Assembly (NCBI RefSeq): GCF_000814025.1
Contig: NZ_JWLL01000006.1
Coordinates: 248,001-312,000 of the forward strand
Length of the DNA: 64,000 nt
Direction: 5' to 3'
Source of the DNA: Tateyamaria sp. ANG-S1
GTDB lineage: Bacteria; Pseudomonadota; Alphaproteobacteria; Rhodobacterales; Rhodobacteraceae
The position numbers were made by a program, and so were the translations under genes. The number at the start of each line of letters is the position of its first letter. Position 1 is the stretch's first letter. The notes below the pieces were generated by a model. That model did no database searches. It was not told the DNA's origin and saw only the letters and a list, made by a program, of their open reading frames with translations. This document shows, one piece after another, positions 8,954 to 62,493 of this stretch.

Positions 8954-8981
8954 AAAAAAAGGCCGAGCGCGAAGCTCGGCC
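8954..8981 (-). terminator. Rho-independent terminator downstream of the LysR gene
   Basis: Read on the minus strand, GGCCGAGC and GCTCGGCC form a perfect 8-bp stem with a 5-nt loop, followed by seven T. It would end transcripts from the LysR gene or from the small RNA candidate, and separates them from the MscS gene. Confidence 0.9.
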
Positions 8982-9040
8982 AAGTCCAACAGGGAGGTAT
9001 GAAGATGGCGCGTTAGCGCCGTGTCTCTTCATTAGGCGAG
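8954..9040 (-). ncRNA. Possible small RNA ending in a strong terminator
   Basis: On the minus strand this stretch has a hairpin at 9031-9000 (TGAAGA with TCTTCA outside, GGCGC with GCGCC inside), then a single-stranded ACCTCCCTGTTGGA, then the terminator at 8981-8954. It lies about 80 bp past the LysR stop. The layout of hairpin, CCUCCC stretch and terminator is that of alphaproteobacterial small RNAs that can pair with Shine-Dalgarno sequences. It could be a free transcript or a 3'-UTR-derived RNA. No reading frame is convincing. Confidence 0.35.
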
Positions 9041-45006: not shown

Positions 45007-45083
45007 CGGAGCGTGGCGCAGCCTGGTAGCGCACCTGTTTTGGGTACAGGGGGTCGGAGGTTCGAATCCTCTCGCTCCGACCA
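45007..45083 (+). tRNA. tRNA-Pro (UGG)
   Basis: This is a 77-nt cloverleaf. The acceptor pair is CGGAGCG with CGCTCCG, the D arm is GCGC...GCGC, the anticodon stem is CCTGT with ACAGG around TTTGGGT (anticodon TGG), and the T arm is GGAGG-TTCGAAT-CCTCT. CCA is encoded. There is no sign of an integrated element downstream. Confidence 0.96.
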
Positions 45084-54072: not shown

Positions 54073-55614
54073 TTACGCCTCCGGCAAATGGATCGCGAAT
54101 TTTTCCCGGATCGCAGCATCAAGCAAAGGGTCAAAAGCCGCTTGGGGGCGGGTGGCGAGGATCTCGTCCTTGCGGGCCTTTGCCTTGGCAATCAGGTCCG
54201 GCTTGCCCAACTCCACCCATTCCTTGGGCGAGGTGCGGTCGCCGAATGTCGGATAGACACAGTCCGACTGCATCCGCGACAACGTCTGATCCGTGCCCAG
54301 ATAATGGCCCGGCCCCTCCAGGCAGACCTGCGCGATCTGGTCGAGGGCCAGAGTGTCCTCCGTAACCTCAATCCCGCGCGTGCAGCGCAGCGCCTGACCG
54401 ATGATGTCATCGCCCAGAATCAGGCTTTCATGGCAGAACCCGAGCAGTGAGGCGTGCATGCCCGCGGCCTCATAGACCATGTTCAGCCCCGACAGGCCTG
54501 CCATGACGTTGGAACACATCTGTTCCCAGCCTGCCTGCATGTCGGGCAACTTGCTGTCCGTGGCCCCGGCTGCCGCCCCGCCGGGCAGGTCGTAGAACCG
54601 GTGCATCTGCGCGCAGCCCGCTGTGAGCAGCGCCTGTTCACCTGACCCGATGGACATGGCCCCTGTGCGCAGATCAAGGCCAAAGGGCCACGTGCCGAAG
54701 ATCGCAGGTGCCCCCGGCTTGACCGCGTTGACATAGACAAGGCCCGCAAGGCATTCCGCCACGGCCTGCACGATGGCGCCCGCGATGGTCGACGGGGCCG
54801 TGGCCCCCGACATGCCCGCTGACAAGAGCAGGACGGGCAGGCCCGCTTCGATACACGCCTCCATCACCTGACAGGATTCGGGTGCGAATTTCATCGGCGG
54901 CACGACAAAGCAGTTCGTGTTCGACATGAAAGGCCGCGCGCGCCAGGCGTCCTCGCCACCCGCGATCATGTGCAGCATCTCGACCGCCGGAGCGACGCAC
55001 TGCGCCTCGGAAAAGCTCATGCCGATATGTTTCGTCGTGCCCGACACGCAGGCGTAGACCGCGTTGTACTCGCTCTCGACCATGTCGGGGATGTCGCGGC
55101 ACACCATGGGCCGCTGGCAGAAGTGGATGTTGTCCAGCGCGTCGCAAATGCGTGCGGCATCGTGCAGGTCCTGCACGGTGCTGTCGCGGTAATTCTGCCC
55201 GTCCACATCGACCATGTGCACGGCAGCTCCGGCGGTGCCGTAATGCACGCGGCTGCCGCTCAGCTCGAGGTCGTGCTTGCCGTCACGGCTGGGCAGGGTG
55301 ATGGCGCGGTTGGCCTTGGCCAGCGTGTCCTCGACCAGCGCACGCGGAAAGCGGATGCGCCCGTCATCGCCCTGAATTGCGCCTGCTCCGGTCAGATAGG
55401 CGACACCAGACGGCGGGGCATCGGCCAGCCCGATGGTTTCAAGTGCATCGAGGGCGGCGTTGTGGATGCGCGCGACCTCCGCGTCGGTCAGCGGATTGTA
55501 CCGCCCGCCTTGCAGGCCGGGGCGCACGGGGCGCAGGTGGTCGGGCAGGGCGGTGGCGCGGGCCGCACGGCGGGCAGCGCGCCCGCCCGAGCGGGAAGGG
55601 GTTTGGTCATTCAT
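54073..55614 (-). CDS. MttB-family methyltransferase, non-pyrrolysine type
   Basis: This is a 513-residue member of the trimethylamine methyltransferase (MttB) superfamily. Blocks such as HYGTAGAAVHMVD, CQRPMVCRDIPDMVESEYNAVYACVSGTTKHIGMSF and IFGTWPFGLDLRTGAMSIGSGEQ follow the family. There is no in-frame amber codon, so no pyrrolysine; relatives without it demethylate quaternary amines such as glycine betaine. A corrinoid protein and a methyl-tetrahydrofolate partner are normally encoded nearby, and neither is visible here. The substrate is unknown. Confidence 0.87.
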   Translation of the reverse strand: MNDQTPSRSGGRAARRAARATALPDHLRPVRPGLQGGRYNPLTDAEVARIHNAALDALETIGLADAPPSGVAYLTGAGAIQGDDGRIRFPRALVEDTLAKANRAITLPSRDGKHDLELSGSRVHYGTAGAAVHMVDVDGQNYRDSTVQDLHDAARICDALDNIHFCQRPMVCRDIPDMVESEYNAVYACVSGTTKHIGMSFSEAQCVAPAVEMLHMIAGGEDAWRARPFMSNTNCFVVPPMKFAPESCQVMEACIEAGLPVLLLSAGMSGATAPSTIAGAIVQAVAECLAGLVYVNAVKPGAPAIFGTWPFGLDLRTGAMSIGSGEQALLTAGCAQMHRFYDLPGGAAAGATDSKLPDMQAGWEQMCSNVMAGLSGLNMVYEAAGMHASLLGFCHESLILGDDIIGQALRCTRGIEVTEDTLALDQIAQVCLEGPGHYLGTDQTLSRMQSDCVYPTFGDRTSPKEWVELGKPDLIAKAKARKDEILATRPQAAFDPLLDAAIREKFAIHLPEA

Positions 55615-58432: not shown

Positions 58433-58463
58433 TATTCAGACTGACAGAATCAGGAAGCGTCAC

Positions 58464-59123
58464 ATGCAACATACACTCTCCAAAACAGCAGGAATGATCG
58501 CGGTCAGCGCGCTGTTTGCGCTTTCGTCCCAGGCCATGGCCCAGACAACGACGGACACCGACCACTCACACGATCACAGTCACGATGAACAAGCCGAAGA
58601 GCTGTATCTGATCGACGAAGCAGACGTGCGCGCGCGCGAGCTGTCCGATTGGGCGGGGGACTGGCAGTCCGTTTACCCGTATCTGATGGATGGCACCCTG
58701 GATGCAGTGATGGAGCACAAGGCAGACCACGGCGACCAGACCGCCGAGGAATACCGCGCCTATTACGAGATCGGCTACAAAACCGATGTCGAGCGGATCG
58801 TGATCGACGGCGCGGACGTGACCTTCTTCCGCAACGGTGAGCCGACCCAGGGGCAGTACGAGGCTGACGGCTACGAAATCCTGACCTACGCGTCCGGCCA
58901 CCAGGGCATCCGCTTCATCTTTGAAAAAGCGGGCGGCGATGACGCGGCCCCGCAGTTCATCCAGTTCAGCGACCATGAAATGGTGCCGACCCAGGTGGAT
59001 CACTACCACCTCTACTGGGGCGAGGATCGCGCCGCGCTGTTGGAGGAAGTGACCAACTGGCCAACTTACTACGCCTCCGGCCTCAGCGGTGACGAGTTGG
59101 TGGCCAAGATGGTCGCCCACTAG
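58464..59123 (+). CDS. zinT: Periplasmic metal-binding protein ZinT
   Basis: This 219-residue protein has a signal peptide (about 26 residues, ending AMA-Q), a His/Asp-rich stretch DTDHSHDHSHDEQ at 31-43, and a ZinT/YodA lipocalin-like domain (LSDWAGDWQSVYPYLMDGTLD...FIQFSDHEMVPTQVDHYHLYWG). It binds zinc in the periplasm and supports ZnuABC uptake under zinc starvation. ATG 58464 begins the signal peptide. A Zur-like palindrome precedes it. No znu genes are next to it. Confidence 0.93.
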   Translation: MQHTLSKTAGMIAVSALFALSSQAMAQTTTDTDHSHDHSHDEQAEELYLIDEADVRARELSDWAGDWQSVYPYLMDGTLDAVMEHKADHGDQTAEEYRAYYEIGYKTDVERIVIDGADVTFFRNGEPTQGQYEADGYEILTYASGHQGIRFIFEKAGGDDAAPQFIQFSDHEMVPTQVDHYHLYWGEDRAALLEEVTNWPTYYASGLSGDELVAKMVAH

Positions 59124-59142
59124 AACGGCCCATACATAGCAG

Positions 59143-59170
59143 CGCACCCGCCTGTTTCGGCGGGTGCGTT
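59143..59170 (+). terminator. Hairpin terminator of zinT
   Basis: CGCACCCGCC and GGCGGGTGCG form a 10-bp stem with a 6-nt loop, 20 bp past the zinT stop. The T-run is weak (TT), so termination may be partial. Confidence 0.6.
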
Positions 59171-59257
59171 CGCGCCTCCGCGCCACGGCCCGTCGTGGAC
59201 GATACGCCCTGACGAAAAGGGTTGACCGCCCGCAGCCCCCCGCGCTACCCACACGTC

Positions 59258-59299
59258 ATGACCGGAACGATCTGCATTCTCTGCTGCATCATCTGCTGA
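59258..59299 (+). CDS. Cys-rich 13-codon leader peptide upstream of cysS
   Basis: ATG to TGA encodes MTGTICILCCIIC: four Cys codons, including a Cys-Cys pair and a final Cys, plus four Ile. It ends 97 bp before the cysteinyl-tRNA synthetase gene. A TTGACC hexamer at 59222-59227 could be the -35 of a promoter giving a leaderless or nearly leaderless transcript. Stalling at Cys codons when charged tRNA-Cys is scarce is the expected mode of such a leader. No such leader is known to me for this family, so this is inference from sequence alone. Confidence 0.5.
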   Translation: MTGTICILCCIIC

Positions 59300-59389
59300 T
59301 TTCTTCAGCGGGCCGGTTCTTTGTTTCCATGACATCTCAGAATTGCTAGGCCCGCGCCCAACCCGCGCCCGCGCCCTGCATATCTGAGG
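59295..59389 (+). promoter_or_regulatory. Candidate attenuator and Shine-Dalgarno-masking helix of cysS
   Basis: After the leader stop, 59295-59299 pairs with 59305-59309 (GCTGA/TCAGC). Alternatively GCGGGCC at 59308-59314 pairs with GGCCCGC at 59349-59355. Separately TCTCAGA at 59335-59341 pairs with TCTGAGG at 59383-59389, which contains the cysS ribosome binding site. The first two compete for 59308-59309. Confidence 0.4.
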
Positions 59390-59396
59390 CTTCGAC

Positions 59397-60791
59397 ATGA
59401 CCATCCAGCTCTACAACACCGCGACCCGCCGGAAAGAGGGGCTCGCGCCCCTCGATCCCAGCAATGTCCGGATGTATGTCTGCGGCCCCACGGTCTATGA
59501 CCGCGCCCATCTGGGCAACGCGCGCCCCGTGCTGGTCTTCGACACGCTCTTTCGCCTGTTGCGCCATGTTTATGGCGAAAATGCAGTGACTTACGTGCGG
59601 AACTTCACGGATGTGGATGACAAGATCAACGCGACAGCGCTGGCACGGAAAGAGGCAGGCGCGCCCGGCACGCTTGAGGAATTGGTGGCCCAGCGGTCGG
59701 ATGAAACCATCGACTGGTATCACGCCGACATGGACAGTCTGGGCGCCCTGCGCCCCACCCATGCGCCGCGTGCGACGGCCTTCATCACCCAGATGGTGAA
59801 CATGATCTCGGGCCTGATCGACCGCGACTTTGCCTATGCGCGCGACGGCCACGTGCTGTTCCGGGTGCGCAACTATGACGACTACGGCAAGCTGTCGGGC
59901 CGCTCGGTGGACGACATGATCGCCGGTGCGCGGGTCGAGGTCGCGCCCTACAAGGAGGACCCGATGGACTTCGTCCTCTGGAAACCCTCCGACGACGATC
60001 TGCCCGGTTGGGACAGCCCATGGGGCCGGGGACGCCCCGGCTGGCATATCGAATGCTCCGCCATGGCCTATGAGCTTCTTGGGGCGCAATTCGACATCCA
60101 TGGCGGCGGCAACGATTTGCAGTTTCCCCACCACGAGAACGAAATCGCGCAGTCAAAATGCTGCGGCCACGACTTCGCCAACATCTGGATGCACAACGAG
60201 ATGTTGCAGGTCGAGGGCAAGAAGATGTCCAAATCCCTGGGCAACTTCTTCACCGTGCGCGACCTGCTGGATCAGGGCGTGCCGGGCGAGGTGATCCGGT
60301 TCGTGATGCTGTCCACGCACTACCGCAAGCCGATGGACTGGACCGAGAAGAAGCGGGCGGAAGCGGAGGCCACCTTGCGCAAGTGGGCCGGGATCGTGGC
60401 TGATGATGATGCACGTGCCAACACCAGTGCATCACAGGTGCCGCAAACCATCCTCGACGCGCTCTCCGATGACCTGAACACGCCGCTCGCCATCACCCAT
60501 TTGCACCGCCTCGCATCCGACCGTGACGGCGCCGGACTCTCCGCGGCATTAAACTTAATGGGCTTTAACCTTGATGCGATGGACGTGTCTGAGCCGGTCG
60601 ATCTGGGCGACTTGGCAGCACAGCTCGCCGCGCTGCGGGCCGATGCAATGGTGTCCAAGGACTTTGGTCCCGTCGATGCAATGAAGTCCGCGCTGACGGA
60701 GGCTGGTGTCGAAGTCCGCATGAGCAAAGAGGGTGTCGAACTGGTGCCCGGCACCGACTTCGATGCGACCAAACTGGAGGCGCTGAAATGA
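59397..60791 (+). CDS. cysS: Cysteine--tRNA ligase
   Basis: This is a 464-residue class I synthetase. Cys29 in YVCGPTVYD and later Cys/His residues ([22 protein letters not shown]) are the zinc and amino-acid-site ligands. The HIGH-type motif is AHLGNAR near residue 38 and the KMSKS motif is [10 protein letters not shown] near 275. GAGG lies 7 nt before the ATG. It follows a Cys-rich leader ORF and is followed by a coupled small ORF and cimA. Confidence 0.97.
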
Positions 60792-60880
60792 CCCCAAACC
60801 TTACCAACAGGTTAAACCGCCTCTGTAACCCCTTGAAATCGTGTCGCTCCAAAAGCGTCCCAGCAAGGGACAAGACATGA
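60788..60880 (+). CDS. 30-codon ORF overlapping both cysS and cimA
   Basis: The ATG overlaps the cysS stop (ATGA) and is preceded by GGAGG seven bases upstream, inside cysS. The TGA overlaps the cimA ATG (ATGA). The product begins [19 protein letters not shown] and is basic, with four Leu and two Cys. The perfect double overlap suggests it couples translation of the two genes. No domain is recognised, and the GGAGG may simply be cysS codons. Confidence 0.35.
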
Positions 60881-62493
60881 CCCGCGAACGCCTCTACCTT
60901 TTCGACACCACCCTGCGGGACGGCCAGCAAACCCAGGGAGTCCAGTTCTCGACCCCCGAAAAGCACCAGATCGCCCAGGCCCTCGACACGCTCGGGATCG
61001 ACTATATTGAGGGCGGTTGGCCCGGTGCCAATCCCACCGACAGCGCCTTTTTCGAGGACGCCCCCAAAACCCGCGCCACCTTCACCGCCTTCGGGATGAC
61101 CAAGCGGGCGGGCATCAGCGCCGAAAATGACGACGTCCTCGCTGCCGTCCTGAACGCGGGCACCAAGGCCGTCTGTCTGGTCGGCAAGACCCACGATTTT
61201 CACGTCGAAAAAGCCCTCGGAATCTCGCTGGTTGAAAACACCGCCAACATCTCCCAAACCTTTGCCCACCTCGCGGCCCAGGGGCGCGAGGCGATCTTTG
61301 ATGCCGAACACTTTTTCGACGGCTACAAAAGCAACCCTGACTACGCCGTTGAGGCGATCCAAGCCGCCTACGACGCAGGCGCGCGCTGGATCGCCCTGTG
61401 CGACACAAACGGCGGCACGCTGCCCCACGAAATCCACGAGATCACCAAGGCCGTGATCGCATCGGGCATCCCCGGTGACAGGCTGGGCATCCACACCCAC
61501 AACGACACCGAAAACGCTGTCGCGGGATCTCTGGCAGCCATCGACGCAGGCGCGCGGCAGATCCAGGGCACCCTTAACGGGCTGGGCGAGCGCTGTGGAA
61601 ACGCGAACCTGACGGCCCTGATCCCGATCCTGCTGCTCAAGGAACCCTATGCCAGCCGGTTCGAAACGGGCGTTTCGAAAGAGGCGCTGGCCGGGCTGAC
61701 GCGGACAAGCCGGATGCTCGACGACATCCTGAACCGCGTGCCACAGAAACAGGCGGCCTTTGTGGGCGCTTCAGCTTTTGCTCACAAGGCGGGGCTGCAC
61801 GCCTCGGCGATCTTGAAGGACCCGACAACCTACGAGCATGTCGATCCTGCCACTGTCGGCAACACCCGCATCATCCCGATGTCGAACCAGGCGGGGCAGT
61901 CGAACCTGCGCAAGCGACTGGCCGAGATGGGGCTGGACGTCGCGCCCAAGGACCCAGCCCTTGCCCGCATCCTCGACCGGATCAAGGCGCGCGAGGCGGA
62001 GGGGTATTCCTATGACACCGCGCAGGCTTCCTTTGAACTGCTGGCGCGGGACGAGCTGGGATTGCTGCCCGAGTTTTTCGAGGTCAAGCGCTACCGCGTG
62101 ACCATTGAGCGGCGCAAGAACAAGCGGGACCAGATGGTGTCGCTGTCCGAGGCGGTCGTGGTTGTGAAAGTCGACGGAGAAAAGATGCTGTCGGTGAGCG
62201 AATCCATGGACGAGGCAGGCACCGACCGTGGCCCTGTGAACGCGCTGGCCAAGGCCTTGGCCAAGGACCTGGGGCGCTACCAGACCTATGTCGAGGACAT
62301 CCGCCTCGTCGACTTCAAGGTGCGCATCACCCAAGGCGGGACCGAAGCCGTCACCCGCGTCATCATCGACAGCGAAGACGGGCAGGGGCGCCGCTGGTCC
62401 ACAGTGGGCGTGAGTGCGAACATCGTGGATGCGTCCTTTTCCGCCCTGCTGGACGCGATCCGCTGGAAGCTGGTGCAGGATGGCGTGACATGA
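60877..62493 (+). CDS. cimA: (R)-citramalate synthase
   Basis: This 538-residue enzyme of the isopropylmalate/citramalate synthase family begins RLYLFDTTLRDGQQTQGVQFS, with the metal-binding HTHND near residue 206 and the GLGERCGNANL block near 230. The C-terminal LeuA-type dimer/regulatory domain is present. The FDTTLRDGQQTQG form is that of the CimA-type branch, which condenses pyruvate and acetyl-CoA to citramalate for isoleucine synthesis. The ATG at 60877 has AAGGGA upstream; an in-frame GTG at 60841 is less likely. Confidence 0.9.
   Translation: MTRERLYLFDTTLRDGQQTQGVQFSTPEKHQIAQALDTLGIDYIEGGWPGANPTDSAFFEDAPKTRATFTAFGMTKRAGISAENDDVLAAVLNAGTKAVCLVGKTHDFHVEKALGISLVENTANISQTFAHLAAQGREAIFDAEHFFDGYKSNPDYAVEAIQAAYDAGARWIALCDTNGGTLPHEIHEITKAVIASGIPGDRLGIHTHNDTENAVAGSLAAIDAGARQIQGTLNGLGERCGNANLTALIPILLLKEPYASRFETGVSKEALAGLTRTSRMLDDILNRVPQKQAAFVGASAFAHKAGLHASAILKDPTTYEHVDPATVGNTRIIPMSNQAGQSNLRKRLAEMGLDVAPKDPALARILDRIKAREAEGYSYDTAQASFELLARDELGLLPEFFEVKRYRVTIERRKNKRDQMVSLSEAVVVVKVDGEKMLSVSESMDEAGTDRGPVNALAKALAKDLGRYQTYVEDIRLVDFKVRITQGGTEAVTRVIIDSEDGQGRRWSTVGVSANIVDASFSALLDAIRWKLVQDGVT

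Follow-up and report, generated by a model that had tools for sequence, protein, structure and literature searches.

A Cys-codon leader ORF before cysS in Tateyamaria sp. ANG-S1: a probable instance of the predicted attenuator uORFC-8-2 with a possible link to isoleucine synthesis

The cysS locus and its leader ORF

The window, i.e., the whole stretch of 64,000 nucleotides that was analysed, belongs to the 4.4 Mb genome of Tateyamaria sp. ANG-S1, which is assembled into 32 contigs. It carries a ZinT-like gene, a short leader ORF, cysS, and cimA in this order (Table 1). The ZinT-like protein is encoded 5' of the leader on the + strand (58458-59120), and its best equivalog, NF007639, scored 205.7 and remained below the cut-off of 300. 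The leader ORF features four Cys codons, all of them TGC, as codons 6, 9, 10, and 13 (59273-59275, 59282-59284, 59285-59287, and 59294-59296) as well as Ile codons at positions 5, 7, 11, and 12, and its stop codon is separated from the ATG of cysS by 97 nt. An initial annotation, made from the sequence of the window alone, had recognized this ORF of 13 codons with its Cys codons and its distance to cysS, all of which was confirmed in the window.

Table 1. Positions of the genes, predicted promoters and predicted RNA helices at the cysS locus of the window
Feature	Position	Strand	Details
Predicted promoter P1	59222..59251	+	-35 TTGACC 59222-59227, 18 nt, -10 region TACCCA 59246-59251 (within GCTACCCA)
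Leader ORF MTGTICILCCIIC	59258..59299	+	ATG 59258 to TGA 59299, 13 codons
Outer helix (predicted)	59260..59318	+	59260-59265 (leader codons 1-3) with 59313-59318; fold, partner-specific pairing
Stem 1 (predicted)	59292..59312	+	59292-59299 (last Cys codon and stop) with 59305-59312; terminator-like, followed by U-rich 59317-59326
Stem 2 (predicted)	59308..59355	+	59308-59314 with 59349-59355; 3' arm past the U-rich stretch; fold, paired changes
Promoter-like P2	59323..59352	+	GTTTCC 59323-59328, 18 nt, TAGGCC 59347-59352; +1 expected near 59359
RBS pairing (predicted)	59335..59389	+	59335-59341 with 59383-59389, 7 bp, one G-U; in 4/19 genus loci only
cysS, cysteine--tRNA ligase	59397..60791	+	TIGR00435, 408.7 bits, cut-off 340
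cimA, citramalate synthase (isoleucine synthesis)	60877..62493	+	TIGR00977, 600.4 bits, cut-off 450

By a DNA search of the genus, the leader region was matched in 19 of 20 genomes, the own genome counted, and each of the 19 loci encodes a 13-residue peptide of the type MTRTICIICCIIC, with 14 distinct sequences among them. Cys 6, 10, and 13 occur in all 19 of these leaders and Cys 9 in 18. Within the family, ATG sORFs of 8-20 aa located 55-150 nt 5' of cysS were scanned for in two sets of 126 and 79 loci, which overlap in some species (e.g., L048/L148 and L047/L146). Such an sORF with at least two Cys was present at 101/126 loci of the first set and 68/79 of the second, compared with 3.4 and 2.7 in dinucleotide shuffles. 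At least three Cys were found at 71/126 and 50/79 loci (shuffle means 0.3 and 0.3, reverse complements 0 and 0) and at least four at 41/126 and 20/79 (dinucleotide shuffles 0.0 and 0.0), while some further family loci have leaders with a single Cys codon. These counts rule out a chance ORF and, judged by its sequence, the leader ORF is real and conserved. The initial annotation had suggested looking for conserved Cys codons in an alignment of relatives, and these are indeed kept, both in the genus and, far above the shuffles, in the family. Sequences containing N were skipped in the leader set, and 29 of 168 leader sequences that were weak in Cys content, lacked anchors, or were too short had been removed before the helices were tested, leaving 139. 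A tandem CC occurs in 123 of these 139 leaders and in the window occupies positions 9-10.

A covariance model of the leader region, trained on 46 family loci, had matches at E<=0.01 in 169 of the 196 genomes examined from the order. In the own genome, the leader site was the only match at E<=1. Among the family genomes, 132/149 were matched at E<=1, with 121 below 1e-4 and each once at that level, and the ten best of the 132 family matches are located just 5' of cysS. At the level of the class, 12/142 genomes were matched at E<=0.01, two of them inside the family and ten, weakly, outside. Each of these ten matches lies away from the cysS listed for that genome, and no match at cysS outside the family was found among the class genomes. 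A loose sORF scan returned sORFs at 16/28 non-family class loci (17/29 including the family locus L212) and is too permissive to discriminate. At gathering thresholds, no Rfam family matched the leader in the window.

Promoters and helices of the leader region

Predicted promoter P1 belongs to a pattern found 5' of the leaders, namely a -35-like hexamer followed, after 15-16 nt, by GnTAnn. The latter motif stands 8-9 nt from the leader ATG in 114 of the 139 leaders, compared with 13.4 in shuffles, and in 95/120 if the genus is excluded. When the -10 hexamer is read as beginning at TA, the +1 of P1 is expected at the leader AUG (59258 in the window) or within a base or two, and by this geometry the mRNA should start at the leader AUG. 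With such a start being probable, the leader would therefore be read from a leaderless mRNA. An SD-like 4-mer precedes 2/139 leaders versus 107/139 cysS starts. A consensus promoter scan of 59100-59450 found no promoter, the consensus being of the E. coli type. Alphaproteobacterial sigma-70 promoters are described as frequently devoid of the T at -7 (PMC8407463), and the missing T fits P1.

A second promoter-like element, P2, lies within the leader region. Its motif TTTYC-N15-17-GNTA was found at 72/137 leader loci (shuffles 0.9), at 13/40 intermediate loci (0.1), and at 14/25 loci classed as leaderless (0.2), the latter including L101 (short contig, leader remnant) as well as the remnant-like L102 and L085; the reverse complement gave 0. 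P2 is read as a putative promoter of cysS's own, situated inside the leader and also kept at loci that lack one. Its -35-like element shares positions with the U-rich stretch, so that the conservation of the T residues there need not by itself mean termination.

Three helices are predicted for the leader RNA, of which stem 1 and stem 2 are mutually exclusive because both use 59308-59312. The fold of the outer helix with stem 1 (59258-59326) has -21.1 kcal/mol (z -2.31; 5/200 shuffles as good) and that of stem 2 has -19.3 kcal/mol (z -1.91; 11/200 as good); the full 108-nt fold of 59258-59365 is weak compared with shuffles (z -1.15; 25/200 as good). In a terminator scan of 59100-59450, stem 1 with its U-rich tail was the sole terminator-like site, with a mean of 0.1 in shuffles. 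The helices were further examined by permutations, uncorrected for phylogeny, in which the pairing of a segment with its own partner was compared with that to partners taken from other genomes. Three overlapping sets of representatives were used, i.e., 32 in the first set (500 permutations), 45 in the second, and 38 in the all-set (1000 each). For the outer helix, stem 1, and stem 2 alike, the observed mean pairing was reached by 0/500, 0/1000, and 0/1000 permutations, respectively. Control pairs of unrelated segments gave 81, 414, and 493 of 500 in the first set, 958, 843, and 826 of 1000 in the second, and 755, 747, and 851 of 1000 in the all-set.

From the 139 leaders, 52 sequences were picked by hand, and 46 of them were aligned with MAFFT, six being left out. 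In this alignment, likewise uncorrected for phylogeny, stem 2 features 16 cells changed on both sides versus 8.6 shuffled, a value reached by 0/500 shuffles, and 76.2% of its cells are paired versus 74.0% shuffled. In the lower part of stem 1, pairing reaches 93.9%, with covariation not above shuffles; the lower five pairs are nearly invariant and therefore uninformative. RNAalifold on the 46-sequence alignment gave a consensus fold of only 3 pairs (-0.29 kcal/mol). The partner-specific pairing supports the outer helix, stem 1, and stem 2 as conserved pairings. Together with the overlapping coordinates, it likewise supports the two mutually exclusive stems which the initial annotation had placed between the leader and cysS.

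Proposed attenuation of cysS

A leader peptide before cysS is already in print as uORFC-8-2 (Brewer et al., 2021, PMC8632094), so that the finding at this locus is a known prediction, whereas the initial annotation knew of none for cysS here. The published motif comprises 145 examples, all of them located before cysS and all from Rhodobacterales. Its description includes a conserved AUG uORF that holds tandem Cys codons, as well as two stems and a U run, and ribosome-mediated attenuation was predicted for it. The window agrees with this description in its Rhodobacterales origin, in the AUG uORF with tandem, mostly UGC Cys codons directly upstream of cysS, in the U run, here the U-rich tail of a predicted terminator stem, and in the proposed mechanism. 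The restriction to Rhodobacterales is mirrored by the order-wide matches of the covariance model, itself family-trained, and by the lack of matches at cysS among its non-family class matches. A difference concerns the tandem Cys codons, which are usually at positions 14 and 15 in uORFC-8-2 and at 9 and 10 in the window. In the published motif, the Cys codons lie in the first of two prominent stems; the window has an outer helix around its Cys codons as well as stem 1, which may correspond to these stems. A third base-paired region is called rare and without covariation in PMC8632094. The passages on this motif in PMC8632094 hold no Ile codons, cimA, leaderless start, internal promoter, or helix past the U run. 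The comparison adds testable detail, i.e., the start at the AUG, the relevant helices, the internal promoter, and possible isoleucine sensing. A literature search found no experimental follow-up of the uORFC-8-2 prediction, the name of the motif turning up in a single paper of the collection searched.

Related systems are described in other bacteria. In mycobacteria, polycysteine ORFs (Canestrari et al., 2020, via PMC9031893 and PMC13236596) are likewise short, Cys-rich, predicted to be leaderless, and located before genes related to sulfur or cysteine. In contrast to the window, they belong to another phylum, precede other genes, feature an experimentally shown cysteine response, and are described as acting by translation attenuation. 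Similarly, rnTrpL/peTrpL of Sinorhizobium meliloti (PMC7298713) is an alphaproteobacterial leader ORF with an RNA starting at the ATG, but features Trp codons and trp genes, and trans functions were shown for it.

The leader region is probably a ribosome-mediated attenuator of cysS and an instance of uORFC-8-2, in which stalling at the Cys codons would block the terminator-like structure. Transcription from P1 probably begins at the leader AUG, and the leader would be translated from the leaderless mRNA. With ample Cys-tRNA, the ribosome would reach the stop codon and leave, whereupon the outer helix and stem 1 would form beside the U-rich stretch and RNA polymerase would stop. When Cys-tRNA is scarce, the ribosome would stall at the Cys codons and thereby occlude the 5' strands of both helices, so that transcription would go on; the freed 5' arm would then pair with the 3' arm to form stem 2, preventing stem 1 from forming again. 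The outcome would be a cysteine response of cysS, while P2 may provide a leader-free basal transcript. In favour of this reading are the conservation of the leader and its Cys codons, the covariance-model matches, the partner-specific pairing of the helices, the paired changes in stem 2, the single terminator-like site, the P1 geometry, and the prediction in print. Less favourable are the consensus fold of only 3 pairs, the lower part of stem 1 with its lack of covariation above shuffles, the weak 108-nt fold, the overlap of the U-rich stretch with P2, the uncorrected phylogeny of the permutations, and the leaders with a single Cys codon.

Isoleucine codons, cimA and alternative readings

Among the residues after Met in the 139 leaders, Ile accounts for 31.3% and Cys for 26.5%, compared with 4.0% Ile in matched cysS coding DNA. 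At least three Ile are present in 120/139 leaders and at least three Cys in 113/139. There is no leader without Ile, and leaders with a single Cys still hold several Ile codons. Downstream of cysS, cimA is found on the same strand at 149 of 150 leader loci versus 18 of 27 loci without the leader (Fisher p 1.1e-7, phylogeny uncorrected), a tally over both family sets from which 11 loci too short to judge were excluded. At L174, the only leader locus not followed by cimA, the peptide is atypical and the usual arm is missing.

These features suit a tentative reading of the leader as a sensor of both amino acids. The Ile codons would act as further control codons because cysS is followed by cimA, whose product catalyzes the step with which citramalate-dependent synthesis of isoleucine begins, and a shortage of either charged tRNA would raise cysS-cimA expression. 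The richness in Ile, the lack of Ile-free leaders, the Ile codons kept in one-Cys leaders, and the constancy of cimA speak for such a dual role. At the Ile codon in third place from the leader end, however, 125 of the 139 leaders have ATT and 7 have ATC (ATC also in the window), and ATC is about three times as frequent as ATT in cysS coding DNA. This bias therefore indicates a constraint at the nucleotide level, and the Ile conservation may partly be an RNA constraint. Furthermore, the median gap between cysS and cimA is 85 nt, and the two genes overlap or lie <=30 nt apart in just 33/109 loci, so that co-transcription is only putative; terminator-like sites were found in 4/109 of the gaps and none in that of the window (60792-60876). 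The association of leader and cimA is also weakened by its uncorrected phylogeny and by the 18 cimA loci without a leader. Swaps of Ile and Cys at a fixed distance from the stop had been considered as a sign of equivalence and were dropped, as a CC-anchored alignment attributed them partly to a one-codon length difference.

In its complete form, this proposal, which we regard as possible rather than probable, describes a dual-amino-acid attenuator that would couple tRNA-Cys charging to citramalate synthase by means of a leaderless mRNA, the hairpin of which would also harbour a second promoter independent of the leader. If it is true, cysteine charging and isoleucine synthesis would be linked by a single peptide throughout a large family of marine bacteria. 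Leaders of the thrL type feature two control amino acids (Thr/Ile) for genes touching both. With the dual reading, both would be two-amino-acid leaders, that of thrL with Thr/Ile and not Cys/Ile and with unrelated sequence. The possible link between the leader and the neighbouring isoleucine gene may be new; when the literature was searched for leader peptides of citramalate synthase, the one paper that came up looked unrelated. The initial annotation had mentioned neither the Ile codons nor cimA.

The reading put forward there stands as regards the conserved Cys codons, the exclusive stems, and a fitting promoter geometry upstream of the leader, but not as regards a conserved pairing that buries the cysS RBS. 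It had assumed translational attenuation, with the freed region pairing with the RBS and stalling unmasking it, which is unlikely according to the comparisons. The 7-bp pairing is present in the window and is confined to it and its three closest relatives, being absent from 15/19 genus loci. Pairing of the 3' arm with the SD region was reached by only 9/1000 and 20/1000 permutations in two of the overlapping sets, but by 198/500 in the first. Occupying the 3' arm raised the accessibility of SD and AUG by 0.074 in the 45 representatives (permuted 0.056, sd 0.012) and by 0.036 in the 38 (permuted 0.054, sd 0.016). Certain genus members gain much, e.g., L129 from 0.16 to 0.56, compared with 0.388 to 0.394 for the window. 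On these comparisons, in which the support for SD masking is weak and inconsistent across the family, it is not supported as a conserved mechanism, while single species may differ.

Still less probable is the reading of the inverted repeat as a DNA element at promoter P2 instead of an RNA stem. The P2-like motif with its fixed spacing, also found at loci classed as leaderless, and the position of the 3' arm immediately next to the P2 -10 region would agree with it, but it is disfavoured because the distance between the arms differs among loci, and the arms show paired changes. Least of all do we expect the terminated leader RNA or peptide to act in trans, in the way reported for Sinorhizobium meliloti rnTrpL/peTrpL. 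The predicted leaderless short RNA does resemble rnTrpL, the 5' end of which coincides with the trpL ATG (PMC7298713), but action in trans would supplement control in cis and not substitute for it.

Apart from the proposed cysS attenuator, the window features further elements with Rfam matches. A SorX sRNA at 8955-9039 (-) scored 57.4 bits with a gathering score of 46.6. A PYLIS_3 match at 54465-54564 (-) with 43.9 bits lies within a 513-codon ORF (54073-55614, -), which we take from its sequence to be MttB-like, and it probably reflects coding homology and not a pyrrolysine element. Finally, a tRNA gene is located at 45007-45080 (+) (RF00005, 62.3 bits).
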